From Vibrio sinaloensis DSM 21326 (GTDB taxonomy: Bacteria > Pseudomonadota > Gammaproteobacteria > Enterobacterales > Vibrionaceae), in NCBI RefSeq assembly GCF_000189275.1, contig NZ_AEVT01000008.1, positions 1-64,000 of the forward strand: a DNA stretch of 64,000 nucleotides, given 5' to 3'. The notes under the pieces were generated by a model. It was not told the origin of the DNA, did not search any database, and saw only the letters and a program-made list of their open reading frames with translations. Shown here piece after piece: positions 16,812-31,349 of this stretch. A program made the position numbers and the translations under genes. Positions within the stretch are counted from its first letter, which is position 1. Every line of letters begins with the position of its first letter.

Positions 16812-18434
16812 CTAGTTAGGGTAGTCTATCCAGCTGGTTCCATCTAAAGATACGTAATAACGCTTGTCGACTTCAATAACAGTTGAACCAGAGTTTTGTG
16901 CTACAACGCGTGTCTCTGGGAGCCCGTTGGCCAACTCAGCTGGATTGAACGTCGATTTGGTATAGATATCCTGCTCAAGAATATTCGATACCAACTGTGA
17001 TAGCGCCAAGTAACTAGAAGGTGCTTGAACATGCACTGTATTTCCTTGACGTTGAAGTCCAGGACCAAAGATTTTCACGCCCACAGGAGTATGAACGATC
17101 GTTGGGGCAGGAATTTCACGCATACCGGAAATTTGCATTCTGTCGCCTCGCATTCCTGCGCCGTGCTCAGGAACTAAAGCCACCACGATATTGCGCTCTG
17201 AGGCTTCAAGCTGCTTAAAGAACGCGTATAAATCATCAAGCAGGTTCTTTAAGCGAGCTTTGTAACTAACCAGCGACGTACCAGATTTGCTATTGATGAT
17301 GCGGTTACCGTCATGGAGTGAAATTGAGTTGTATAGGGCAACAACTTTTTCATCATTGCTGCTGAGTCTTTGTTGCCACCAATTATCAAGCACTTGTTTG
17401 TCTCTAAAGATTGAAGATCCATCAAACGATTTTTGATATGGCGTGAAGCCTTCTTGTGACATCAAGTTGGTTTGCAAGTCACCGTCTCGTTTTATCAGCT
17501 CAAGGAAACTGTCAAAGATACCATTATGGTTCATCAACAAGTTTTCTTTAAAGCCTAAGTTCTTTAAATTATCAAACAGATAACATTGTTTGCTCGGTGC
17601 AGGATCGAACAACTGTGCGTGCTTCTGTTGGCCGCAACTGGCACGGAGTAGCCTGACAACCGCAGGACCACTGTAAGACGTCGCAGCACTGAAGTTATCG
17701 AACATGATGTCGAACTCTGTAAATAGTGGGTGATCGCTCAGACCCGCGATTTCAATATCGTCCCATGCGACAGAGCAAACACTTAAAAACAACATGTCGA
17801 AAGGTGCACTTTGCTGCTCTGTGCTGCTAAACGTGACTCGACGAGAAGATTCCTGAACGAAAAACTCTTCCTTTAGCTTATTTAGAGTGGTGTCGTTAAT
17901 TTCAGTAATCTCAGGTTGGGTGGTTGGCTCGCTTTGAGTCGGCGTGGCTGGTGCAGTAGAAGCAGCAACGGTAGCCGCGGGGCTTTGCTCACTTTCAGGA
18001 AGGCTCACCATGATCATGGCGATAACCACTAACACTGAGACACGGACAAACTTACTCAATAGAAAATAGCCTGCGCATAGCGTAAAGATAGCAATGACGG
18101 CTTCAAGAGAGACAAATCGACCGAGTAGCTCAACAAGGTAGCTCATCTCAAATTGCATCAATTGGCCTGCTTGCGCCCATAAGCGTTCAAGCGGTGGAAG
18201 GTATGAGTCGTAATGTAATAACCATGCGGCAGCGGGTACGGCCACCAAGTGACGGAATATGTTGAGTGGTTTCACTCGTATCGGCAGCAAAATAAACAGC
18301 AATAAGGCAAAGTTTTCCAATGGATGGAAATCAATGACGCCCTGAATATACAAGGCCACTTTCGCGATAAAATATATGTTCCACCATCCAAGGCCAATCG
18401 AAAATAGAGGTGGTTGTTGAGAATGTGAAGTCAT
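16812..18434 (-). CDS. bcsG: Cellulose phosphoethanolamine transferase BcsG
   Basis: Inner-membrane enzyme that transfers phosphoethanolamine from phospholipid to nascent cellulose in the periplasm. 540 aa from the ATG at 18434, which overlaps the bcsF stop as TGATG; a GTG one codon earlier is also possible. Several hydrophobic segments span 11-145, a Ser/Thr/Pro linker 150-180, then an alkaline-phosphatase-like domain. Counted from the GTG, the zinc/catalytic residues match E. coli BcsG: Cys221 ('SVCSVAWDDIE'), nucleophile Ser256 ('TSYSGP'), Glu424-His425 ('VPEHG'). All are present, so modified cellulose is expected. Confidence 0.93.
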   Translation of the reverse strand: MTSHSQQPPLFSIGLGWWNIYFIAKVALYIQGVIDFHPLENFALLLFILLPIRVKPLNIFRHLVAVPAAAWLLHYDSYLPPLERLWAQAGQLMQFEMSYLVELLGRFVSLEAVIAIFTLCAGYFLLSKFVRVSVLVVIAMIMVSLPESEQSPAATVAASTAPATPTQSEPTTQPEITEINDTTLNKLKEEFFVQESSRRVTFSSTEQQSAPFDMLFLSVCSVAWDDIEIAGLSDHPLFTEFDIMFDNFSAATSYSGPAVVRLLRASCGQQKHAQLFDPAPSKQCYLFDNLKNLGFKENLLMNHNGIFDSFLELIKRDGDLQTNLMSQEGFTPYQKSFDGSSIFRDKQVLDNWWQQRLSSNDEKVVALYNSISLHDGNRIINSKSGTSLVSYKARLKNLLDDLYAFFKQLEASERNIVVALVPEHGAGMRGDRMQISGMREIPAPTIVHTPVGVKIFGPGLQRQGNTVHVQAPSSYLALSQLVSNILEQDIYTKSTFNPAELANGLPETRVVAQNSGSTVIEVDKRYYVSLDGTSWIDYPN

Positions 18435-18610
18435 CACTTACGCTTCTTTTTTTCGTTTATAGAAAGGTCTTGTTCGAAATATTTTGAGTGCTGCAATCTG
18501 CGCTGGTAGAAACGCTTGAGCATTCTCACTGCATCCCGCATAAAATAACCGAGAAAAAGACCGACAGTTAGGCTGATGCCTACGGTGAGTAAAAAATCAT
18601 GAATATTCAT
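18434..18610 (-). CDS. bcsF: Cellulose biosynthesis membrane peptide BcsF
   Basis: A 58-aa single-pass membrane protein. It reads 'MNIHDFLLTVGISLTVG' into one hydrophobic helix (about residues 5-23) and then a basic cytosolic tail ending 'NEKKKRK'. In E. coli BcsF anchors BcsE at the membrane and so recruits the c-di-GMP sensor to the synthase. Identification rests on size, topology and position between bcsE and bcsG, because primary sequence is weakly conserved in this family. The start lies 2 nt after the bcsE stop and its own stop overlaps the bcsG start, so the three genes are translationally coupled. Confidence 0.85.
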   Translation of the reverse strand: MNIHDFLLTVGISLTVGLFLGYFMRDAVRMLKRFYQRRLQHSKYFEQDLSINEKKKRK

Positions 18611-18612
18611 AC

Positions 18613-20190
18613 TTAACCCTTAAGGCGAATGGCTTGTTTTACGGCAAACAGTTCGGGCTCTTCAGCTATGGTGTGAGCCGCTGGGCTAAACAGTTTCTGC
18701 TCTGTCGCCAAACTGGATATTTCTTTCGCCACTTCTACCTTGTCTTGCACTATGTACTTTAGCTCAGCTTCAACATCGATTTGTGTATCAAAGATGCGGA
18801 CCGAATGAAACAAGTCGCGGACAGGGAACTCGAAGATGTTGCTCAATGCCATGTCTATGTCGCTTGGGCGTATCATACTGAACAGAACGTACAAGGCGGT
18901 ATTACCCGCCGTAACGACATCGCCATCTCTGCGTATATGACAAAGTCGTAAACATTCACCCGCACTCATACCAGGCAAGAGTTTTAACCTAATCAGACAA
19001 TAATTCACATTAGCGTGAGTTGAGTTGGTAATGATGTCCGTGCAGTATTGAATGAAATCTTGATGATTTAAGTATCCTTTGCTGCCAAATTTGACATCGT
19101 ATTTCAGCAGAGAGTCTAATGTCCGAGGCAAGGTTCGCGTCAGTATCTGGCCTTGTATGGCCTCAACTTGTGTCATAAATCGCGTGTGCGGCACTTGTGC
19201 TGGGCAAATCAAGTTAACGCCTGCTCGGAGGAAGAACTGTTCATCTGCATGGCGCAGGCACTGTTTGGTCTCGCGGATTATAATCTTCAGTTGGCGACCT
19301 GCTTGAGTTCTTAAGCGGTAGCAATCGAGCGCCAACTGATGAACCTCTCCTTGGCTTGTGCAACTAAAGATAAGAGTAGAAGCTCTGGGGCTGTCGAGCA
19401 TGTCGATCAAATGTTGGTTGTTGTCGGCCAAGTGAATACTTTTGGCTACGACAGCGCCTTCCATAACCGCGTCTTTACTCATATAGACCCGTTCACTGTC
19501 TGCTTTGTCTTCTTTTACATCTGTTGAAAGGAAATGCTCGTATTGAGTGGCTTGTAGGTGGCCTTGGTCACCAAAGGTCACAATGAACTCTTGCTCTGAC
19601 TTAACGCCATGAGTGTTGGACCAAAAATCGATAAGATAGCTGTAGCGCGAATTATCCAACACAGCCATTGTCGTCAAACCAGCAATAAATTGGTTGATGG
19701 TGAGCAGTTTTGGCTTGAGAACGGAGGTGGCGAGGTGACCAAAAATGCAAATATTCACTTTCAGACTTTTCTTACGTGCCAAAGCGTTTATTTTCCTTAA
19801 AAAGACTCCGATGTCATCATCGCTGTAGTGAGACAGTATTGAATCAGGGAGAATAAGCACTAATTGTGAATTATTTCTAAGGGTTAGCTTATATAAATCT
19901 TTTGCGAGTATTAATGGTGCTAGTTTCTTTTTTGCCTTTTTTACCGCGAGAAAATAAAGCGAACTAATGTGATTTTCTGCCAAATAATCAAAAGCTTGTA
20001 TAGAGTTGTTATCAAGTCCAGATAGAAAAGTGTCCTTATCGACAAAGCTGGTCACGCAGCTATCATGGCTGATAGCCGAGGCACTAGAGAGGAACTCTAG
20101 GACCATATGCTTATGTGTAAACAAATTGACGTAGACTGACTTGCTATTTTGTTCACTGATAACTGCGGGCAAACTGTTAATTAATGACAT
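18613..20190 (-). CDS. bcsE: Cellulose biosynthesis c-di-GMP-binding protein BcsE
   Basis: Cytosolic regulator of E. coli-type cellulose synthases that binds c-di-GMP through its C-terminal GIL domain and enhances synthesis. 525 aa, against about 523 in E. coli. The I-site-like RxGD is present at 421-424 ('RRDGD'), and an RxxD sits at 313-316 ('CLRHADEQF'), inside a block that resembles E. coli BcsE closely. The N-terminal part (1-220) is a degenerate receiver/ATPase-like region as in the family. First gene of the leftward bcsE-bcsF-bcsG unit. Confidence 0.93.
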   Translation of the reverse strand: MSLINSLPAVISEQNSKSVYVNLFTHKHMVLEFLSSASAISHDSCVTSFVDKDTFLSGLDNNSIQAFDYLAENHISSLYFLAVKKAKKKLAPLILAKDLYKLTLRNNSQLVLILPDSILSHYSDDDIGVFLRKINALARKKSLKVNICIFGHLATSVLKPKLLTINQFIAGLTTMAVLDNSRYSYLIDFWSNTHGVKSEQEFIVTFGDQGHLQATQYEHFLSTDVKEDKADSERVYMSKDAVMEGAVVAKSIHLADNNQHLIDMLDSPRASTLIFSCTSQGEVHQLALDCYRLRTQAGRQLKIIIRETKQCLRHADEQFFLRAGVNLICPAQVPHTRFMTQVEAIQGQILTRTLPRTLDSLLKYDVKFGSKGYLNHQDFIQYCTDIITNSTHANVNYCLIRLKLLPGMSAGECLRLCHIRRDGDVVTAGNTALYVLFSMIRPSDIDMALSNIFEFPVRDLFHSVRIFDTQIDVEAELKYIVQDKVEVAKEISSLATEQKLFSPAAHTIAEEPELFAVKQAIRLKG

Positions 20191-20599: not shown

Positions 20600-20809
20600 G
20601 TGGATAGTATTTTGACTGAAACCGCGAAAGATATTAAATCGATTTATGCTTCTTATGACCTATCACATTCAAATTATAGAGAGACAACCGAAAGTGAGTC
20701 ATATTTAGAAGCTAAGAACAAGTGGTTGATACTTAAAGTAAGTGCTTCCGAAAATCGTCATGAGCACCTTAAGCAACAGGTGAAAAACAGTTCAACGGAA
20801 TCCCTATGA
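20600..20809 (+). CDS. bcsR: Cellulose biosynthesis protein BcsR
   Basis: Small cytosolic partner of BcsQ; in E. coli the BcsR-BcsQ complex is needed for assembly and c-di-GMP response of the synthase. 69 aa. The pattern 'DIKSIYASYDLSHSNY' followed by 'LEAKNKWLILKV' matches the E. coli BcsR layout (helix, Leu-Ser..Tyr, then a Lys-Trp-x-x-Leu core). The start is GTG; the ATG two bases earlier is out of frame and stops after five codons. The stop overlaps the bcsQ start by 4 nt (ATGA). Family match is moderate, position strong. Confidence 0.8.
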   Translation: MDSILTETAKDIKSIYASYDLSHSNYRETTESESYLEAKNKWLILKVSASENRHEHLKQQVKNSSTESL

Positions 20810-21576
20810 AACGTCTGCTTATCGTAAGTTTGAGAAAAGGCTGTGGTGCGACTACAGTGACAGCCAATTTGGCTCAAACTCTAGTCAAAATTAACAAGCA
20901 GGTGTTAGCCGTCGATCTATCGCCAGAGAATTTGCTTCGCTTTCATCTAGGGCTCACTTTGTCGGAACGAGATGGTTGGGCTGCCCGGATGCTGGTCGAA
21001 GAACCTTTTATTGAGGCTGGCTATCAAAGCCCTTTGGGCGTCTCTTTTTTGCCCTTTGGTCAGTTGAACGATCAACAACGCGCAACGTTTAGTGAGGTTG
21101 GGGGGGACGTGATGTCTCAACTCGGCAACACGCTTCTTCAAGTCGAGCAAGAGGAGCAGTGGCAACTGTTTCATGGCGAACTGGAGCTGCTTGAATCACC
21201 GGCTGGACGTGATTTGATCGATTCAATGGATAGGGTATTCGTCGTATTAAATGCAGAAGCGATGAGCTATGCCGCTTTGCAATCTCAGTTGCAGCGAAAT
21301 CCTATTATCGCAGAGCTGCTTGATAGCAATAAAATGCGTTTTTTGCTGAATAAATACCAACCTGAAACAGAGGTGGGGCGTGACTTTATGCTCGTGTTGA
21401 AAAATGAGTTACAAAGTGCCTTAGCCCCAGTCTATCTTCATCTGGACACCGCATTGTTAGAGAGCGCTGCAAACTTAACAACGGTGCAGCATCATTCGGC
21501 ATCCAGTCAGGCGGCGAAAGATTTTCAATCTTTAGCGTTTTGGTGCGTGTCCGCCCTCTCCAACCCAAGTTATTAA
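20806..21576 (+). CDS. bcsQ: Cellulose synthase accessory ATPase BcsQ (MinD/ParA-like)
   Basis: SIMIBI-class ATPase that works with BcsR in the cytosol to assemble the polar or multi-subunit cellulose synthase. 256 aa. The P-loop near the N-terminus reads 'RKGCGATTVTANLAQTL': the signature Lys remains, but the usual P-loop GKT/GKS lysine is replaced by Ala. E. coli BcsQ also deviates there. A ParA-type 'VLAVDLSPENLL' strand follows. Second gene of the rightward operon; bcsA starts 9 nt after its stop. Confidence 0.9.
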   Translation: MKRLLIVSLRKGCGATTVTANLAQTLVKINKQVLAVDLSPENLLRFHLGLTLSERDGWAARMLVEEPFIEAGYQSPLGVSFLPFGQLNDQQRATFSEVGGDVMSQLGNTLLQVEQEEQWQLFHGELELLESPAGRDLIDSMDRVFVVLNAEAMSYAALQSQLQRNPIIAELLDSNKMRFLLNKYQPETEVGRDFMLVLKNELQSALAPVYLHLDTALLESAANLTTVQHHSASSQAAKDFQSLAFWCVSALSNPSY

Positions 21577-21585
21577 GGTGGGATC

Positions 21586-24222
21586 ATGCATAGCTTGAAT
21601 CTTATCTTCCGTCGCTGGGTTGTTGAGCAATTCAGTGTGCAGAAAAAAGTATATGAGCAAGAGTGGGGGCGTAAAGCCAGCTGGCTTGGTGGCGTGACAC
21701 TTTCGCTTTGGTTCTCATTCTGCTTTGTGTTTCTCAAACCAGAAATTGGCGGAGTACCTTCGTGGAAGCTGCCTTTAATCTATTTCCCACAAGTCAACTT
21801 TGCTGCACCGCGCTTGTTTGATCCGATTCGATTTGCCATTCAAAGTATTTGGTTGATCTGCTTTAAACAATCAACGCCCACTGGGCTTGGTCAATCGGTT
21901 GCTCAATCAAGCCTGTTTTTAGCAAAGTGGCTGCGCAAGATCTTTTATATGCCATTTTACTCGGTGGCTAAAGGGGTTAGTTGGCTGGAAGATGCCGCCA
22001 ATCAGATGAGAGACCCACAGACGCGTGAGCGGATCAAAAGCAGTAAGTCAGCCATGTTGTTGAATTACGCATTGTTGTTTTTGGTTGTATTTCTTGCGCT
22101 ACTTTGTTTTACCGTGCCATTTGGCTATCAAGCGCAAGTTGTGTTTATTGTGTTGCTATGGGCATTGGCAATGATGGTGCGACGCATACCGGGCCGATTC
22201 CCGACTATGCTGCTGATCATTTTGTCAGTGACGGCATCATGCCGCTACCTTTGGTGGCGTTATTCGTCAACCTTGAACTGGGATGACTCTCTAGCGCTGT
22301 TTCTTGGCGGTATTTTGCTAATGGCGGAAACCTATTCCTGGATCGTCTTGATGCTGGGTTATTTCCAAAATATCTGGCCGTTGAACCGTAAGCCCGCGCC
22401 AATGCCAGAGGATCAATCCCTATGGCCAACAATAGATATGATGATCCCTACGTACAATGAAGATCTCGATGTTGTGAAAGCGACGGTCTACGCGGCGATG
22501 GGAGTCGACTGGCCGAAAGACAAGCTCAAAATTCATATCTTGGATGATGGCAAACGAGACAGCTTTCGCGATTTTGCTCAGCAAGTTGGCGTCAACTACA
22601 TACGTAGGCCAACCAATGAGCATGCAAAAGCGGGCAACATTAACTACGCCTTGAAACATACTGATGGTCAGTTTGTCGCAATTTTCGACTGTGACCACAT
22701 TCCAACGCGCGCCTTTTTCCAGCTTACGATGGGGATGTTTATAAAGAACCCCGAGCTCGCTTTGATTCAGACACCGCACCACTTTTTCTCGCCTGATCCG
22801 TTTGAGCGTAACCTGGCGAACTTCCGCGATGTGCCTAACGAAGGCAACTTGTTTTATGGCCTGATTCAAGATGGTAACGACTTGTGGGATGCGACGTTTT
22901 TCTGTGGGTCTTGTGCCATTTTGCGTCGTGAGCCGCTAGAGCAGGTGGGCGGGATCGCCGTTGAAACGGTGACTGAAGATGCACACACATCCTTACGTAT
23001 GCACCGTTTAGGGTATCGTTCTGCATACCTTAAACAACCAATTTCTGCGGGCTTAGCGACAGAAACCTTGTCTGCTCACGTTGGACAGCGTATCCGCTGG
23101 GCGAGGGGGATGGCGCAGATCTTCAGGGTTGATAATCCATTAATGGGTAAAGGGCTGAAGCTTTCTCAGCGGCTTTGTTACCTCAATGCAATGCTGCACT
23201 TCTTGTCTGGAATACCTAGGATTGTTTTCTTGATTGCGCCATTGGCCTTTTTACTGCTGCACTCTTATGTGATTTATGCGCCAGCTCTAGCGATTGTATT
23301 GTACGTTTTACCGCATATGGTCCATGCCAGTATGACCAACTCCCGGATGCAAGGGGACTATCGTTATTCGTTTTGGGGGGAAGTGTATGAAACGGTACTT
23401 GCATGGTACATCGCTAGGCCAACCACTGTTGCTCTTTTTGCCCCTCATAAGGGAACATTTAATGTAACTGCTAAAGGTGGCTTAGTGGAGAAATCGCATT
23501 ACGATTGGGTGATTTCTCTACCTTATCTTGCTTTGGTTGGCTTGAACATTCTTGGTTTTGCGGTCGGGTTGTACCGTATAGGCTGGGGGCCTAATGATGA
23601 GATCGGCACGGTTATCGTAAATCTACTATGGACAGTGTACAACCTACTGATTCTTGGCGCTGCGGTAGCGGTAGCGGTTGAGGCTAAGCAGGTCAGGAAA
23701 GACCATCGAGTTGAGGTTTCGATTCCCGCTGGTATTAGGCTTAAATCTGGCCATATTTTGCAAGCGAAGATGAAAGACTTCTCACTCGGCGGCGGCAGTA
23801 TCGAAGTTAACGGTGTTGATGAGCAAGCCTGTCAGGGGTTGCTCGGTGAATCTCTAGAAGTGATCTTAAATCGTGGCGGACAAGAGTTTGTTTTTCCGAT
23901 GACGGTTGCCTTTACCCATAACGGTTTATTGGGTATGCAACTTGAGGAGATGCCGCATAAACAAAAAATCCAGTATGTTCAATGTACATTTGCACGCGCG
24001 GATACCTGGTCTAAATGGCAACAGAGCTATAAGTCAGACAAACCGTTGGCGAGCATGCAGGTTGTGCTACAAGTCGGTTTTACAGGATACAAGCGTTTGC
24101 TTGGACACTGTCCTAAATTCGTTAGGACTGGTGTGGAAGGACTTTCATTTTGTATCAACTTTATTTGGTCGCTTAGACCTCAATATGTCCCAATCAGGAC
24201 CAATAGCCATGTTAAACAATAA
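21586..24222 (+). CDS. bcsA: Cellulose synthase catalytic subunit BcsA
   Basis: Polymerises glucose from UDP-glucose into beta-1,4-glucan and threads it through the inner membrane. 878 aa, like E. coli (872). After a Bcs-specific N-terminal segment and membrane helices, the GT-A domain has Asp in 'ILDDG' (318-322), 'FDCDH' (367-371), 'FFCGS' (438-442), catalytic 'TED' (463-465) and 'QRIRW' (501-505). The C-terminal PilZ domain has the c-di-GMP motifs 'RKDHR' (704-708) and 'DFSLGG' (731-736). All activity and activation residues are intact. Its 3' end overlaps bcsB. Confidence 0.98.
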   Translation: MHSLNLIFRRWVVEQFSVQKKVYEQEWGRKASWLGGVTLSLWFSFCFVFLKPEIGGVPSWKLPLIYFPQVNFAAPRLFDPIRFAIQSIWLICFKQSTPTGLGQSVAQSSLFLAKWLRKIFYMPFYSVAKGVSWLEDAANQMRDPQTRERIKSSKSAMLLNYALLFLVVFLALLCFTVPFGYQAQVVFIVLLWALAMMVRRIPGRFPTMLLIILSVTASCRYLWWRYSSTLNWDDSLALFLGGILLMAETYSWIVLMLGYFQNIWPLNRKPAPMPEDQSLWPTIDMMIPTYNEDLDVVKATVYAAMGVDWPKDKLKIHILDDGKRDSFRDFAQQVGVNYIRRPTNEHAKAGNINYALKHTDGQFVAIFDCDHIPTRAFFQLTMGMFIKNPELALIQTPHHFFSPDPFERNLANFRDVPNEGNLFYGLIQDGNDLWDATFFCGSCAILRREPLEQVGGIAVETVTEDAHTSLRMHRLGYRSAYLKQPISAGLATETLSAHVGQRIRWARGMAQIFRVDNPLMGKGLKLSQRLCYLNAMLHFLSGIPRIVFLIAPLAFLLLHSYVIYAPALAIVLYVLPHMVHASMTNSRMQGDYRYSFWGEVYETVLAWYIARPTTVALFAPHKGTFNVTAKGGLVEKSHYDWVISLPYLALVGLNILGFAVGLYRIGWGPNDEIGTVIVNLLWTVYNLLILGAAVAVAVEAKQVRKDHRVEVSIPAGIRLKSGHILQAKMKDFSLGGGSIEVNGVDEQACQGLLGESLEVILNRGGQEFVFPMTVAFTHNGLLGMQLEEMPHKQKIQYVQCTFARADTWSKWQQSYKSDKPLASMQVVLQVGFTGYKRLLGHCPKFVRTGVEGLSFCINFIWSLRPQYVPIRTNSHVKQ

Positions 24223-26500
24223 AAAACTCACAGCCTTAACCACAGCAATTTCCTTGATGTGTATATCGGGCGGTGTTACGGCACAAGAAGTCAGTCAATC
24301 ACCTCACGTTCCGTTTGAGCAGTTACAAACTGCGGACAGTTCAAACGTGTATAAGCGCGTCGTCCCATTTAGCCAATTGGGTTACGGTGGCTCTATTCCA
24401 ATTTTGGGAAGTGAAGCCAGTGCTTATGTTGGTTTTGGTTCGCGTCTCGATGAGGTAGTGTCAAACGCAACCTTGTATTTCGACATTACGCCATCGCCAG
24501 CGTTACTTTCTCTGGTCTCTCACGTTAAGGTTTATTTAAACAATGAGTTGATGGGCGTGGCCTCGATACTTGATGGGCAGCAAGGAAACAAGTTAAGCCT
24601 CTCTATGCCACTTGATACGCGCTATTTCAGTAACTTCAACCAGCTACGTTTTGAGCTAATTGGTAATACTAAGAAAGAGTGTGCAAACCCAAATGACTCA
24701 AGTATTTGGGCTGAGATCAGCCAAAGCAGCCGAATTGAGATGTTTGTTCAGAAGACGCGTTTAGAGAGTGATTTAGCTTTGTTGCCCGCTCCGTTTTTCG
24801 ACAAACGTGATTTTAGCCAACTAAACTTGCCTGTTGTTATGGGCAGCGACTATGACTTAGATGAAGTTAAGGCTGCCGGTGTTCTGAGTTCCTACTTTGG
24901 CGCACTTTCTGGTTGGCGCGGAGCCCAATTTCCACTTAGTGTCGATGATTTACCAGACCAACATGCCGTGGTGATGATCACCAACGACAATAAGCCCGAT
25001 TTTCTCCGAGATTTTCCAGACACAGATGGTCCCCGAGTTCAGGTTATTACGCACCCAACTGACCCTTATGTGAAGTTGCTTTTAATTATTGGCCGTGATG
25101 GGAAGGACCTGAATACTGCCGTACAGGGTTTAGCTCTTGGAGATCAGCTTTTAACTGGGCCATCGGCGAAGATTAACTCTGTCGGTCAATTAAAACCGCG
25201 CGTTGCTTATGATGCACCCAATTGGATCAATACCGATCGACCAGTAGCTTTTGCCGAACTTGTGGAACAAAAAAGCATGCTGCAAGTTGAGGGACGAACA
25301 CCTCCACCGATCAATGTTAGTTTGCGTATGCCTCCGGACCTTTTCACGTGGCAGAGTAGAGGGATCCCAATGGACCTCAATTATCGTTACTCTCCCCCCG
25401 CGACAGATCACTCCGGCTCTCGCTTAACGGTTAGTATTAACGATCAGTTCGTAGAAGCATTTAACTTAAACAGTTCAGGGCAAAGTGGGGCTTCAAGCCG
25501 TGTACGTGTCCCACTCTTGGATGACAACATATTAAACACTCAAGATCGAGTGCGCATCCCAGCCTTTAAGGTCGATAGTCGTAATGATATTAAACTTGAG
25601 TTTGGTTTTGCCTCAGTGACGGATGGCCTGTGTCAAGTGACTCAGCCAAGTAAGCAATATGGCGTTATTGATGGTGATTCAACTATTGATTTCAGTGGTT
25701 TTCCTCATTATATCGAAATGCCAAATATGCGTGCATTTGCCTCCTCAGGTTTCCCGTATACCAGAATGGCGGATCTGTCTGAGACAGCGGTTGTTGTTCC
25801 CGAAAATAGCCCATTAGAAGTGCTGCAAACCTACGTTAATGTGATGGGAAGCATGGGCATGAACTCTGGTTACCCTGGTATTCAGGTGACGTTGACAGAT
25901 AAGTGGGATGCTGACCGACTCAAGGATAAAGATATCTTAAGTATTGGTGTGGCTAATGCATTAGAAGAAGCCGTTGCGGATCCTAGTCAAATTGGCGTTA
26001 TCGTGAAGCAAGCAGAGCGTCAAATTCGTTTGCCCATCAAAAATGAACACCAATTGGGAATGAGCTGGATGGATCCTAGCACTGCCAACCAGCAGGCCAA
26101 TGATTATGTGTCAGTCAATGCAAACGGTTCATTTGCGGCTATTTATGGTATGGAGTCTCCGTATACCAGTAATCGCAGCCTCGTCTCCATCATGGCTGCT
26201 CATCCAGCGGACTTTGCGGTCGTCGATCGTGCTTTGGTTGATTCTGGCAAGCTGGAGTACATGTATGGTTCTGTAGTCACTTTTAGAAACGATGAAGTTG
26301 CCAGTTACAACGTTGGTAACCATTACTATGTTGGTGAATTACCTGTCTGGCAGTTAGTTTGGTACCACTTCTCCAATCACCCAATTATTGTGGCGTGCTT
26401 TGCTGCGTTGTTGATGGTGATAGTCACGGTTGTGTTGTGGCGATTACTGCGTCAAGTAGCAGCGAAACGTTTGTCTAACTCTGAGGAGGAGGAAGAGTGA
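24209..26500 (+). CDS. bcsB: Cellulose synthase periplasmic subunit BcsB
   Basis: Membrane-anchored periplasmic partner that stabilises BcsA and guides the glucan. 763 aa from the ATG at 24209, chosen because a good signal peptide begins there ('NKKLTALTTAISLMCISG', ending 'VTAQ') and AGGA lies just upstream. An in-frame ATG at 24185 is possible. The frame stays open far upstream but that part is antiparallel to nothing conserved and overlaps bcsA. Alternating carbohydrate-binding and flavodoxin-like domains fill the periplasmic part. One C-terminal membrane anchor ends it ('HPIIVACFAALLMVIVTVVL'). Overlaps bcsA by 14 nt. Confidence 0.95.
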   Translation: MLNNKKLTALTTAISLMCISGGVTAQEVSQSPHVPFEQLQTADSSNVYKRVVPFSQLGYGGSIPILGSEASAYVGFGSRLDEVVSNATLYFDITPSPALLSLVSHVKVYLNNELMGVASILDGQQGNKLSLSMPLDTRYFSNFNQLRFELIGNTKKECANPNDSSIWAEISQSSRIEMFVQKTRLESDLALLPAPFFDKRDFSQLNLPVVMGSDYDLDEVKAAGVLSSYFGALSGWRGAQFPLSVDDLPDQHAVVMITNDNKPDFLRDFPDTDGPRVQVITHPTDPYVKLLLIIGRDGKDLNTAVQGLALGDQLLTGPSAKINSVGQLKPRVAYDAPNWINTDRPVAFAELVEQKSMLQVEGRTPPPINVSLRMPPDLFTWQSRGIPMDLNYRYSPPATDHSGSRLTVSINDQFVEAFNLNSSGQSGASSRVRVPLLDDNILNTQDRVRIPAFKVDSRNDIKLEFGFASVTDGLCQVTQPSKQYGVIDGDSTIDFSGFPHYIEMPNMRAFASSGFPYTRMADLSETAVVVPENSPLEVLQTYVNVMGSMGMNSGYPGIQVTLTDKWDADRLKDKDILSIGVANALEEAVADPSQIGVIVKQAERQIRLPIKNEHQLGMSWMDPSTANQQANDYVSVNANGSFAAIYGMESPYTSNRSLVSIMAAHPADFAVVDRALVDSGKLEYMYGSVVTFRNDEVASYNVGNHYYVGELPVWQLVWYHFSNHPIIVACFAALLMVIVTVVLWRLLRQVAAKRLSNSEEEEE

Positions 26501-27603
26501 AAAAACTGATCTCTTTGTTATTGATACTGATCACACCTCAGGTTTGGGCTGATGTTTGTGAGTGGCCACAATGGCAAACCTTTAAGTCTATCTACCTTGA
26601 GCAAGGGCGTGTTATTGATGGTAGCGATGAGCGTTTGATTACGACTTCCGAAGGCCAGTCATATGCCTTGTTCTTCGCTTTAGTCGCGAACGATCAACAA
26701 ACATTTAGTCAGGTCTTGGGTTGGACTGAAAAGCATTTGGCGGGTGGTGACTTAACCGCTCAATTACCTGCTTGGCTATGGGGAAGAACGGAAAATGGTC
26801 GCTTTGATGTGTTGGACAGCAACCCAGCATCCGATTCCGACTTGTGGATTGCCTATGCTTTAGTTGAAGCAGGGCGTCTTTGGGATAACCACTATTATCA
26901 GTCTTTGGGGCATCTACTGGCGAGTCGTATTCTGCGCGAAGAGACTGCAATGATTGAAGGCATCGGGACCATTTTGCTTCCTGCTCCGGTAGGGTTTCAT
27001 TTAGAACAAGGCTATCGAGTGAACCCTAGCTACGTTCCATTGCAACTTCTAGCGCGTATGCAGGCACTTTATCCTCAATATTCATGGCAGTCGATGTACC
27101 AATCCAGCGCCCAAATGTTGTTTGGTACTATGCCTGCTGGCTTCAGCCCTGATTGGGCTACCCTCCATAAGGGACAATTCAGTAGCGATGAAGTGACAGG
27201 TCCTTTAGGTAGTTACAATGCTATTCGGACTTATCTTTGGGCTGGAATGCTGGATGATAATGTCGCAGAGAAAACGGCATTAGTTGAAGCCATGCAACCT
27301 TTTATTACTGCGACAAAAACGCTAGGCGCACCGCCTCGTGAAGTCGATACACAAACAGGGCACTTTTCACAATTGGGCAGTGCTGGTTTTTCCGCTGCGG
27401 CTTTGCCATTGCTGTCTGCCGTTGGCCAATCTGATTTAGCTGAAGCACAGGCAAAACGAGTGAAAGTAGAGTTGGTCAGTGATAGAAATGATCACTACTA
27501 CGATAATGTGCTGAGCTTATTTGGACTGGGCTGGTATGAAGGGCACTACCGTTTTGGGGAGCAAGGAGAGCTGTTACCTGCATGGAGCGAGCAATGTCAA
27601 TAG
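26497..27603 (+). CDS. bcsZ: Periplasmic endo-1,4-beta-glucanase BcsZ (GH8)
   Basis: Cellulase of the Bcs operon that trims nascent cellulose in the periplasm. 368 aa, same as E. coli. GTG start overlapping the bcsB stop (GTGA), behind GAGGAGGAGG. Signal peptide 1-18 ('TPQVWA'). The general acid Glu52 is in 'TTSEGQSYALFFAL' (E. coli Glu55), and 'SDSDLWIAYAL' holds the substrate Asp. The catalytic base, Asp243 in E. coli ('SYDAIR'), is Asn241 here ('SYNAIR', codon AAT at 27217-27219). Some GH8 subgroups use another base, but a cellulase with Asn here may have low or altered activity. Confidence 0.93.
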   Translation: MKKLISLLLILITPQVWADVCEWPQWQTFKSIYLEQGRVIDGSDERLITTSEGQSYALFFALVANDQQTFSQVLGWTEKHLAGGDLTAQLPAWLWGRTENGRFDVLDSNPASDSDLWIAYALVEAGRLWDNHYYQSLGHLLASRILREETAMIEGIGTILLPAPVGFHLEQGYRVNPSYVPLQLLARMQALYPQYSWQSMYQSSAQMLFGTMPAGFSPDWATLHKGQFSSDEVTGPLGSYNAIRTYLWAGMLDDNVAEKTALVEAMQPFITATKTLGAPPREVDTQTGHFSQLGSAGFSAAALPLLSAVGQSDLAEAQAKRVKVELVSDRNDHYYDNVLSLFGLGWYEGHYRFGEQGELLPAWSEQCQ

Positions 27604-30600
27604 TTAGGCGTGTTGCTTGGCTGATTCCGCTGGTGACAATGACCAGCGGAATAAATGTGGCGCAAGCGAGTTACGCAGCGCCGCTCAGTAAAGAGCAACT
27701 GGCGGCAGTTTATCAGCCAGTGTCATTAGTGCAATTTTCAACTTCACTCGCGCGTGTTGATTCTGTTGATTGGTTAATTGGTCAGCTCAAGTTAGCGGAT
27801 GCGGTAGGCCGAGACGATATTGTTGAAAGTACTCTTGAACAATTGTTTGCTGTCGAGGAGAGCAATCTAACCGGCTTGTTCTATCAAGCGAACATGTTCT
27901 TGAAGCGCCAGCAAGCGGATCTAGCTCAGCAAACCTACCAGCAATTAAACAAGCAAGCTCCTGACTCACCTCAAGCGCAGAACCTGCGTATGATTCTTTC
28001 TCTCAATGGCGAGAAGAAAGCGGATTATCAGCGCGCAAAACTGCTTGCAAAATCTGGCCGTTATGATGAAGCAGTTCAAGCATATCAAGGCCTCTTCCCA
28101 CACGGCATGCCATCGGCGGCTTTGCAACTTGAATATCTACAGTTAATTAGCAATTTTGAAGGTAACTGGAGCAAAGTTAAAAGAGGTTTAGAGCGTTTAA
28201 ACGCGGATTACCCTGGCGTTCCCAAGTTCCAATTAGCTTTGGCAGATCATATTCGTAAACAGAACCCAGGTGACTCGTGGATTTTGGCGACATACCAGAC
28301 ATTAGCCCTTTCCATCGGCACAGGAAAAAGCGCTGCGACTTCGTGGCTAAGAGCTCTAGAGCAACTTCCCATTTCACAGCAAGTCGTTGAGCAGTATGCG
28401 ATTCTAGCTAGCTATTACCCTTCAGATCTTGAGATTCAGCAAGCGTATAATGATGCGGGTAAACGCTGGATGATGGAGCAAGAGCTACGTAAAGACCCCA
28501 CCTACCTAGCGAAGTTGAAAGGTCTTAAGTTGCTTGAACAAGGTAAAACTACCCAAGCTGAACAGCAACTTCGTTATGCCCTAACTACACGTCCCAATGA
28601 GCCCGAAATTTTAGGGGGATTGGGCAAGGTTTACTTACGTCAAGGGTTACAACAAAAAGCGTTGGCGTACTTTAAACGTGCTCAAGCGAATGACCAGAAT
28701 CCAGACAATGCCTCTAAATGGTCGAGTTTGATTGAAGCTTCACAGTATTGGGCACTGCTTGATCAAGGGGATGTTTTTACTCGTCAAGAGAAGTTTAAAC
28801 AGGCAGAAAGTGCTTATCGAAAAGCCGCTCAAGTAGATAACAGTGAGCCTTATGCGTATGTATCTTTGGGGGCTCTCTATCTCAGTCAACAAAACTTTGT
28901 TGCAGCAGACAAAGCATACAGTCAGGCGATTAAACGTGACAAGCTGAATGGTTCAGCTCTTGGTGGGCGACTGGATGTTCGAATTGAACAGCGCGATTTG
29001 CAAGGTGCCCAGTCGCTAGCGAACCGATATAGCTCGGCGCAGAAAAAAGTAGTTGCAGCTAAGATTGAGAGTATTGAATCAGAATTGATTTTGGCCAGAC
29101 TTAGAGTGGCTATTGCCAATGATGATCAAGTGGCAATGGAGGAGGCTGTTAATGATTTGATCGCATTGCAACCAACATCTCCTTGGCTCCGACTTGATAT
29201 AGCAGATGTTGTTCGCTCTATGGGGGACAAGCCTCGGGCTGCTGAGCTTATGACCGAGTGGGCGAGAGATAACCGCGAGCCGGAAATGGTGTTTGCTTAC
29301 GCTATTTTCTTAGCACAGGAATCTCAGCTTGAACAAGCAATTTCAGTGTTAGAAAGTGTACCTAAACCAGATCGTACACCTTCTATGCAGCGCAATTTAA
29401 CGCGCCTTAAGTTAGACGCCGAGCTTCAACACTTATCTGTACGCTATCAGGTTTCGCCTGACTCTATGATTGCTCTGCTCACCCATCTAGAATCCAAGTA
29501 TGCGGGGCAGATCTTACCGTTAGCTCGGATTGTAGGGGCTTGGGTTGAAATTGAACTCCCCGACAAAGCGATGCGCATCTATCGAACTATTTCATCATCC
29601 CCGCAATGGTCTGTTGAGGAGCGATTAGCGTATGGCAACATGATGGTCAGTTTGAACCAGTATGAGGATTTTGACCATTGGTATCAAAGTTTGGATATTG
29701 GCTCGGCGGACCAAGAAATAAGCGCTTCTGCGGCGCTCCAATTCGATGAGCTGAAAACACGTCGAACGCTTTCTCAAGCTAACCTGCTCATGGCTCAGCA
29801 ACAAGCAGAACAAGCAATACCGTTATACAGCCAGGTACAAGAGGAGCCTGAACCTTTTAAGACGCAGGCTCAGATCGGCATGCTGCGCGCAACGGCTCTT
29901 ATTGGTGATGAAAGAAGTAGCCATGATTTGCACCTTCTATTGAGTCAAAAACGTCACGATTTGACCTCAGAGCAGTTGATAACGGTTGCCACTCTATTTA
30001 ACGAACTTGGTTATAAAAGTGAGGCCAATGAGCTGAATCGTTTGTTGGATGAAACCAAGCAGGTGGATACTTTTACGTACCGCAACAGCTTGGCGCTCGC
30101 AATGAGAAACCAGCAATGGTTGTTGGCTGAAGAGAGAGCTTATCAAGCTCTCAACAGTGATCGTATAGTTAAAAGCTCACAACCAGAACAAGCGAGTCAG
30201 GAGTCACCAAGTTTACGCGAACTATACGATAGCGCTGATGACTATTGGCTGACGCAAAACGTCAAAGCTGACATCGATAAGATGCGTGATCGCAGCGATG
30301 GCCATATTTTAGTTGGTTGGGATTATAGCGCTCGTGATGGTCTTAATACGTCAAACCAAGTACCTATTGAAGCTCGTATTCCCGTGCAGTCTCTTGATGG
30401 CCACTTGTTGCTAAGAGCCGATTATGTGTCAATTGACTCAGGTGAGTTGGAATATTATCAGAAGAGTACAGACAGCAATGAGACGATATTTAGCAATGAC
30501 GCTCAAGGTTTTGCGTTAGGCGTGGGGTGGCAAGCTGAAGATTGGCAAGTTGATCTCGGGACAACACCTGTCGGATTTGACCATACGACTTGGGTTGGTG

Positions 30601-31349
30601 GGATAAGCCTTGCAGGGAAATTGGGAGAGTTTGGTTGGCGAGCTGAAGCCTCCCGCCGTCCAGAAACGAGCAGCATGCTTTCTTACGCGGGGATGACCGT
30701 CCCGAGTGGTACTGAAGACCCTGCCGGAACCAAGTGGGGCGGTGTAGTTCGTAGCGGAGTGAGTCTGAGTAGTAGTTGGGATATTGGTGGGCCTTATGGC
30801 TTTTGGAGCAGTGCCCAATATCACGTGTTGAATGGAGAGAAGGTTGCAGACAACACCCGTCTGGGTTTATTAGGCGGAGCTTACTATAAACTGATTGCTA
30901 ATGACGATCAGCGATTGAGTATTGGTAGCAACCTGATCTACTTAGGTTATGATAAAAACTTAGGTGAGTACTCATTGCATCACGGTGGCTATTACAGTCC
31001 ACAGAGCTACGTTTCTCTGTCACTGCCCGTTAACTATTATGGTCGTTATCTAAATAGTTGGTCGTATCAATTGAGTGGTTCGATTTCGAACTCTTGGACG
31101 GTTGAAGATGCACCTTATTTGACTCAGGAGACGGGCTCGGAGCGAGGGGGCGGCTTTGGTGCATCGTTGCAAGCTGCGCTTGAGAAGCGAGTTGGTAAGC
31201 GCTGGTACTTGGGAGCTGAACTCGATTTACAACGCTCTGAGTTCTATACGCCAAACCACTTTATGCTTTATGCCAAATACACCTTTAACGATCGCTGGCA
31301 ACCCATCGGATACCCGCCGGCGGTTCCGCAATTGTACAGTCAGTTCTAA
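27594..31349 (+). CDS. bcsC: Cellulose export protein BcsC (TPR plus outer-membrane barrel)
   Basis: Carries cellulose across the periplasm and outer membrane. 1251 aa from the ATG at 27594, which overlaps the bcsZ stop by 10 nt; another in-frame ATG lies 12 nt earlier. A signal peptide (1-27, 'VAQASYA') is followed by many TPR helical repeats to about residue 880, e.g. 'AEQQLRYALTTRPNEPEILG' and 'AYVSLGALYLSQQNFV'. The C-terminal 340 residues are a beta barrel of the BcsC_C family, ending in Phe as outer-membrane proteins do. About 95 residues longer than E. coli BcsC, probably extra TPRs. Last gene of the operon. Confidence 0.96.
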   Translation: MSIVRRVAWLIPLVTMTSGINVAQASYAAPLSKEQLAAVYQPVSLVQFSTSLARVDSVDWLIGQLKLADAVGRDDIVESTLEQLFAVEESNLTGLFYQANMFLKRQQADLAQQTYQQLNKQAPDSPQAQNLRMILSLNGEKKADYQRAKLLAKSGRYDEAVQAYQGLFPHGMPSAALQLEYLQLISNFEGNWSKVKRGLERLNADYPGVPKFQLALADHIRKQNPGDSWILATYQTLALSIGTGKSAATSWLRALEQLPISQQVVEQYAILASYYPSDLEIQQAYNDAGKRWMMEQELRKDPTYLAKLKGLKLLEQGKTTQAEQQLRYALTTRPNEPEILGGLGKVYLRQGLQQKALAYFKRAQANDQNPDNASKWSSLIEASQYWALLDQGDVFTRQEKFKQAESAYRKAAQVDNSEPYAYVSLGALYLSQQNFVAADKAYSQAIKRDKLNGSALGGRLDVRIEQRDLQGAQSLANRYSSAQKKVVAAKIESIESELILARLRVAIANDDQVAMEEAVNDLIALQPTSPWLRLDIADVVRSMGDKPRAAELMTEWARDNREPEMVFAYAIFLAQESQLEQAISVLESVPKPDRTPSMQRNLTRLKLDAELQHLSVRYQVSPDSMIALLTHLESKYAGQILPLARIVGAWVEIELPDKAMRIYRTISSSPQWSVEERLAYGNMMVSLNQYEDFDHWYQSLDIGSADQEISASAALQFDELKTRRTLSQANLLMAQQQAEQAIPLYSQVQEEPEPFKTQAQIGMLRATALIGDERSSHDLHLLLSQKRHDLTSEQLITVATLFNELGYKSEANELNRLLDETKQVDTFTYRNSLALAMRNQQWLLAEERAYQALNSDRIVKSSQPEQASQESPSLRELYDSADDYWLTQNVKADIDKMRDRSDGHILVGWDYSARDGLNTSNQVPIEARIPVQSLDGHLLLRADYVSIDSGELEYYQKSTDSNETIFSNDAQGFALGVGWQAEDWQVDLGTTPVGFDHTTWVGGISLAGKLGEFGWRAEASRRPETSSMLSYAGMTVPSGTEDPAGTKWGGVVRSGVSLSSSWDIGGPYGFWSSAQYHVLNGEKVADNTRLGLLGGAYYKLIANDDQRLSIGSNLIYLGYDKNLGEYSLHHGGYYSPQSYVSLSLPVNYYGRYLNSWSYQLSGSISNSWTVEDAPYLTQETGSERGGGFGASLQAALEKRVGKRWYLGAELDLQRSEFYTPNHFMLYAKYTFNDRWQPIGYPPAVPQLYSQF

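Follow-up and report, generated by a model that had tools for sequence, protein, structure and literature searches.

Background

Cellulose secretion in many bacteria involves BcsZ, a protein of glycoside hydrolase family 8 (GH8) whose general base is taken to be an aspartate (Asp). In Enterobacter EbBcsZ (PDB 7F81, 7F82), Asp242 is treated as the base catalyst (PMC8805304). In Escherichia coli BcsZ (PDB 3QXF, 3QXQ, 9B87) the corresponding residue is Asp243 of the motif SYDAIR. Here we compare these proteins with the BcsZ of Vibrio sinaloensis DSM 21326, which is encoded in a stretch of 64,000 nucleotides from contig NZ_AEVT01000008.1 (hereafter the window) and has asparagine (Asn) at this place. 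An earlier note on the same DNA had pointed out the replacement and treated it as a peculiarity of one strain.

The place of the proton acceptor is held to vary within GH8 (the Adachi scheme, as recounted in PMC5407803 and PMC6173055). Members of type GH8a have Asp at the start of helix alpha-8, the position of CelA Asp278 (PMC5407803). In the chitosanase CSN-MN of Bacillus sp. MN, Glu74 and Glu261 are the catalytic residues and Asp135 lies at subsite -1, Tyr270, Asn271 and Arg274 being named too (PMC6362164). Outside GH8, PcCel45A of GH45 subfamily C is a natural inverting cellulase without an Asp base, in which Asn92 has been proposed for the role (PMC5829257). A solved structure is available for V. 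fischeri ES114 BcsZ (PDB 5CD2), which is approximately 56% identical to the window BcsZ, matches its predicted model with a Z score of 48.5, and, like it, has SYNAIR with Asn at the base position and Asp ten residues earlier. In 5CD2 this Asn should fall near residue 265, the Asp near 255 and the Glu near 75, as derived from the ranges of the structural match. A search of open-licence literature found no paper on 5CD2 and no description of an Asn-type BcsZ, the latter of which does not show that it is unpublished.

Replacement of the catalytic Asp

The residues of the window BcsZ that are used in the comparison are as follows.

26497..27603, + strand: bcsZ, Asn-type GH8 protein of 368 amino acids, uninterrupted open reading frame with GTG start
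26650..26652, + strand: Glu52, codon GAA, general acid (E. coli Glu55)
26833..26835, + strand: Asp113, codon GAT, subsite -1 residue (E. coli Asp116)
27217..27219, + strand: Asn241, codon AAT, in SYNAIR, at the canonical base place (E. coli Asp243)
27226..27228, + strand: Arg244, codon CGG (E. coli Arg246)
27496..27498, + strand: Tyr334, codon TAC (E. coli Tyr331)

The reading of codon AAT as Asn241, opposite Asp243 of E. coli K-12 BcsZ, holds in both the MAFFT and the BLASTP alignments. Neither alignment places any acid of the window BcsZ opposite the lost Asp; an acid there would have overturned the earlier note. Glu52 and Asp113 were assigned as general acid and subsite -1 Asp through alignment with E. 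coli BcsZ, which bears out the claim that the general acid and the substrate Asp are kept. These two residues, Arg244 and Tyr334 are each present in all 57 Asn and all 45 Asp rows of the 102-row alignment described below, and Tyr240 in all 57 Asn rows. The gene is otherwise full length and in place between bcsB and bcsC, as had also been noted.

The protein is BcsZ, a GH8 member by profile, equivalog, gene place and predicted fold. It scored 490.6 bits against NCBIfam NF008305 (BcsZ equivalog; curated cut-off 299) and 221.4 bits against Pfam GH8 PF01270 (cut-off 24). The predicted model had a mean predicted local distance difference test (pLDDT) value of 80.5 (best of five, from eight alignment rows; the other four 47-77). 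It has the (alpha/alpha)6 fold of GH8, and its top 7 structural matches are BcsZ-type endoglucanases (Z 46-49). E. coli BcsZ and EbBcsZ are encoded at the same place of the operon, match the model in fold (Z 46-47) and have the corresponding general acid, Asp of subsite -1, Arg and Tyr; they differ in having the Asp base and in keeping Trp106.

With Asn241, the window BcsZ lacks the Asp that marks GH8a. It has instead the Y-N-x-x-R pattern of the GH8 chitosanase type, which we take to be the type labelled GH8b (Y240-N241-A-I-R244 in the window; Y270-N271..R274 in CSN-MN). The chitosanase type also has a longer loop relative to Asp-type BcsZ, and this loop is not found in the window BcsZ. There is no extra loop compared with E. 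coli BcsZ either, since both proteins have 368 amino acids and the largest BLASTP gap is 5 residues; the stretch from Trp220 to Asn241 is in fact one residue shorter than that from Trp221 to Asp243 in E. coli. Bacillus sp. K17 chitosanase (PDB 1V5C), the template for CSN-MN, is remote from the window model (Z 30.0, 14% identity). The window BcsZ also has in common with the GH45 subfamily C enzyme that Asn stands where the Asp base is missing; that enzyme is from a different family, and its relay has no known counterpart in the window.

Distribution of the Asn-type BcsZ

In order to see whether Asn241 is private or a clade feature, we aligned BcsZ from overlapping samples of the genus (match in 34 of 196 genomes), family (62 of 296), order (92 of 394) and class (19 of 369). 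The 102-row set consists of the best loci of these four samples, 20 extra regions, one A. fischeri locus and E. coli K-12, leaving out repeat genomes (L032-L037) and rows of less than 300 amino acids or 200 bits; rows dropped by these cut-offs include the split L025 and L107, the broken L123 and distant GH8. The set was enlarged to 117 BcsZ-type and 34 distant GH8 rows with further samples (match in 15 of 98, 2 of 77 and 49 of 299 genomes). Open reading frames of less than 200 amino acids and the repeats L001, L129, L131, L133, L139-L141, L143, L144, L159 and L032-L037 were left out of it, and one piece each of L025 and L107 was taken. A 142-row set (75 Asn, 67 Asp) omits L102, L123, L134-L137 and the Ser rows L026, L027 and L029. 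L038 and L056 are identical and both were counted.

Asn occupies the base position in 57 of the 102 rows and Asp in the remaining 45 (MAFFT alignment). Among Vibrionaceae, counted by a family grouping inferred from contigs common to named records plus the A. fischeri locus, 49 of 50 rows have Asn. The replacement is therefore near-fixed in the sampled BcsZ of the family and found in other lineages too, and not the peculiarity of one strain that it had been taken for; a private mutation or an assembly or sequencing error is ruled out. A known enzyme thus occurs in a natural variant form that nearly all sampled Vibrionaceae BcsZ share. Because nearly every sampled vibrio relative has Asn, the Asn-type BcsZ is probably a long-standing variant working differently and not a broken gene. 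In the larger set the base position of the 117 BcsZ-type rows is solely Asn (64) or Asp (53), and the 34 distant GH8 rows have 11 Asn, 19 Asp, 3 Ser and one gap.

The trees of the 102 and 117 rows need 6 and 8 changes between Asn and Asp, of which at least 2 and at least 3, respectively, are forced by supported branches; the 142-row tree needs 12. A clade of 58 rows contains a single Asp row (L024), the 57 others having Asn. A search of 127 relatives for more Asp-type rows near L024 gave 19 with a match, and full-length BcsZ came only from genomes already in the set. The L024 gene (L193:3536-8203, - strand, genome G190) is the sole Asp-type Vibrionaceae BcsZ row. It is a 1555-amino-acid open reading frame with GH8 at the start and the BcsC C-terminal domain at the end, that is, a BcsZ-BcsC fusion.

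Some other loci were unusual in themselves. In L025 (G058) and L107 (G254), BcsZ is split into two frames soon after the SYNAIR/NYNAI motif, and these splits could be sequencing errors or real breaks. L123 (G647) is a BcsZ-like open reading frame of 277 amino acids that lacks the base motif and is altered in the region of the general acid, perhaps a degenerate BcsZ. Three distant GH8 proteins in genomes of the window's genus, L026, L027 and L029, have Ser (SYSNYR or SYSSYR) at the place of the base.

Selection on bcsZ

The ratio of nonsynonymous to synonymous substitution rates (dN/dS) was 0.06-0.18 in 11 Asn-type bcsZ pairs and 0.04-0.18 in 6 Asp-type pairs; saturation left two pairs involving the window without a value. 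In comparisons of the window with 7 Vibrionaceae loci, the identity of BcsZ was within about 4 points of that of BcsB and above that of BcsC in all 7, identities being taken from the best BLAST segment per protein, some of them partial. A pseudogene or relaxed selection is thus supported neither by dN/dS nor by divergence relative to the operon neighbours. Purifying selection together with the invariant general acid makes decay of the Asn-type bcsZ unlikely. The base Asn codons of the Asn rows alternate between AAC (35) and AAT (22), so that the amino acid stays fixed as its codon changes.

An acidic residue preceding Asn241

Two further residues of the window BcsZ are conserved together as DxxT, each in 53 of the 58 rows of the clade.

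27187..27189, + strand: Asp231, codon GAT, candidate relocated base, 10 residues before Asn241
27196..27198, + strand: Thr234, codon ACA, kept with Asp231

Within the clade, Asp231 and Thr234 have an entropy of approximately 0.6, and the other positions from 222 to 237, a hypervariable loop, have values of 2.0-3.3. In the predicted window model a strand ends at 231 and a helix begins at 240. E. coli BcsZ has Lys aligned with Asp231. In CSN-MN, Glu261 precedes Asn271 by 10 residues, the same spacing as from Asp231 to Asn241; Glu74 and Asp135 are 61 residues apart, as are Glu52 and Asp113; and Asn likewise stands at the helix start with Y-N-x-x-R. CSN-MN differs in having Glu at -10 and chitosan as substrate. 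The earlier claim that a chitosanase-like base loop is absent thus holds for the longer loop, while Asp231 at the CSN-MN spacing casts doubt on the absence of any counterpart of the chitosanase base.

An acid at -10 was found in 56 of the 64 Asn rows compared to 21 of the 53 Asp rows among the 117 BcsZ-type rows (Fisher p = 5.6e-8, a value that ignores kinship and comes from one of several windows). The windows tried, all uncorrected, were -10 and -4..-11 for the 117 rows, and -10, -8..-10, -4..-10, -4..-7 and the control -11..-14 for the 142 rows. In 25 distant GH8 rows an acid occurred at -8..-10 in 9 of 11 Asn and 3 of 14 Asp rows (uncorrected p 0.005), at -4..-10 in 11 of 11 and 6 of 14 (uncorrected p 0.003), and at the control positions in 3 of 11 and 4 of 14. 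The lone Asp-type Vibrionaceae row, the fusion gene L024, has Ser at -10.

We also looked for a new acid exclusive to the Asn types, and found none among the 22 columns of the 102-row set with more than 60% acid in either group. The excess of acid in Asn over Asp rows is largest at columns 231 (0.93 vs 0.38) and 44 (0.95 vs 0.51) and smaller at columns 85, 148 and 358, and acid is commoner in Asp rows at several columns, e.g. 281 and 284.

Possible mechanisms of the Asn-type BcsZ

We tentatively prefer, as plausible but somewhat short of probable, the reading that the Asn-type BcsZ is still active and that proton acceptance has moved to a carboxylate of the preceding loop, most likely Asp231. 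The enzyme would most likely remain an inverting cellulase whose general acid is Glu52. Asn241, at the former base place, would probably hold or orient the attacking water, and proton acceptance would probably have shifted to a carboxylate in the loop that leads into helix 240-251, as described for a GH8 chitosanase, with Asp231 as the most likely residue to reach the water. The relocation to Asp231 rests on spacing and conservation, the residue correspondence with CSN-MN being a reading of the spacing.

Several observations weigh against a relocated base. The association of Asn with an acid at -10 stems mostly from one clade, and a tree-aware test gave no signal, with 3 and 4 independent pairs on supported branches; strict co-evolution of the two is not borne out, for too few pairs are independent. 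Eight of the 64 Asn rows have no acid at -10, one Asn row (L062) has none anywhere at -4..-10, and the 21 Asp rows mentioned above carry an acid at -10 alongside the normal base. Among the distant GH8 rows, just one of the 11 with Asn, and none of the 14 with Asp, has an acid exactly at -10. The distance from general acid to Asn is 197 in CSN-MN and 189 in the window, and because of these 8 extra residues, equal local spacing need not mean equal place. The DxxT turn may also be kept for structure alone.

Another possibility, to which we give real though lesser weight, is that the protein is an attenuated or nearly inactive cellulase, retained chiefly to bind or guide nascent cellulose and doing little trimming. 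The D281N mutant of the GH8 xylanase TtGH8 has approximately 0.1% activity by the text of PMC6173055 (1.8e4 vs 1.6e8 in its table), and since engineered loss of the base is this severe, natural Asn types are either very slow or compensated. The suggestion of the earlier note that BcsZ is slow, inactive or a binding protein keeps its place on this ground. Furthermore, EbBcsZ D242A hardly changed bacterial cellulose, much like the negative control (PMC8805304), and in Salmonella the BcsZ scaffold acts beyond catalysis (PMC5070118). The replacement of Trp residues described below points the same way. What argues against an attenuated enzyme is the strong purifying selection on bcsZ and the invariance of the general acid and subsite -1 residues in the Asn rows, though the former residue is not proof of catalysis because it also contacts substrate. 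In addition, a base site no longer in use would be expected to vary among many residues, and the BcsZ-type rows, restricted to Asn and Asp, show no such drift.

The same restriction, and the recurrence of Asn in 11 of the 34 distant GH8 rows, would also fit a reading in which Asn241 is itself the proton acceptor through an imidic tautomer or a proton relay, as proposed for PcCel45A. We consider this unlikely: no relay to an acid was traced in the window BcsZ, the equivalent change in engineered TtGH8 yields no active enzyme (PMC6173055), and the PcCel45A mechanism was found not to be general even inside its own subfamily (PMC5829257). It is improbable to a similar degree that GH8 has repeatedly swapped the helix Asp for an Asn working as proton acceptor by tautomer or relay. 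If true, vibrio BcsZ would join GH45 subfamily C as a second family in which natural inverting cellulases use an amide base. Post-translational deamidation of Asn241 to Asp would restore the classic base and render the change silent, and Asn and Asp are hard to distinguish in ordinary crystal structures. Nevertheless, deamidation is not fast at an Asn-Ala pair that begins a helix, and it leaves unexplained why Asn is kept with Asp one base change away, so that we regard it as very improbable.

A bacterial family whose BcsZ nearly always lacks the base Asp leaves two alternatives: cellulose export there proceeds without the usual trimming, or the base can shift inside a single enzyme family with no loop being inserted. 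Both are testable now that the structure of an Asn-type protein has been solved (5CD2). GH8 proteins should not be called active or dead from the base residue alone.

Tryptophan differences and substrate handling

The position of E. coli Trp106 is Trp in 89% of the Asp rows and 14% of the Asn rows, with Phe, Tyr and Gln making up most of the remainder (102 rows, counts not tree-corrected). In Asn rows the place of Trp176 (Trp in 82% of the Asp rows) is mostly taken by Tyr, Val or Leu, and that of Trp230 (67% of the Asp rows) mostly by Tyr, Phe or Ile. Trp105 of EbBcsZ stacks cellotriose at a secondary site (PMC8805304) and should be E. coli Trp106 by a one-residue offset. As the Trp at this stacking position is mostly replaced in the Asn rows, substrate handling may also be different in the Asn types.

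Operon and genome context

The window has the gene order bcsQ-bcsA-bcsB-bcsZ-bcsC, with further bcs genes on the opposite strand.

16812..18437, - strand: bcsG, Pfam CBP_BcsG; TIGR03368
18434..18610, - strand: bcsF-like small open reading frame of 58 amino acids, named by position only, between bcsE and bcsG; no NCBIfam match
18613..20190, - strand: bcsE, Pfam CBP_BcsE
20806..21576, + strand: bcsQ, Pfam CBP_BcsQ
21586..24222, + strand: bcsA, Pfam glycosyl transferase 2, Cellulose_synt and PilZ
23906..26500, + strand: bcsB (longest open reading frame), Pfam BcsB, match beginning at residue 151
27582..31349, + strand: bcsC, Pfam BCSC_C and TPR

The true start of bcsB is probably further in, because the TTG start of its longest open reading frame falls within bcsA. 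The genes bcsE and bcsG (16812-20190) are opposite in strand to 20806-31349, an arrangement as in E. coli, from which we consider it likely that phosphoethanolamine cellulose, with which the E. coli annotation connects BcsG, is made here. The whole genome was also searched for a second GH8 as backup and has only one GH8. It further has two weak GH5 matches and one GH9 match of 90.2 bits (G000:C127:118269-119486, - strand), the latter on the contig of the bcs operon, outside the window.

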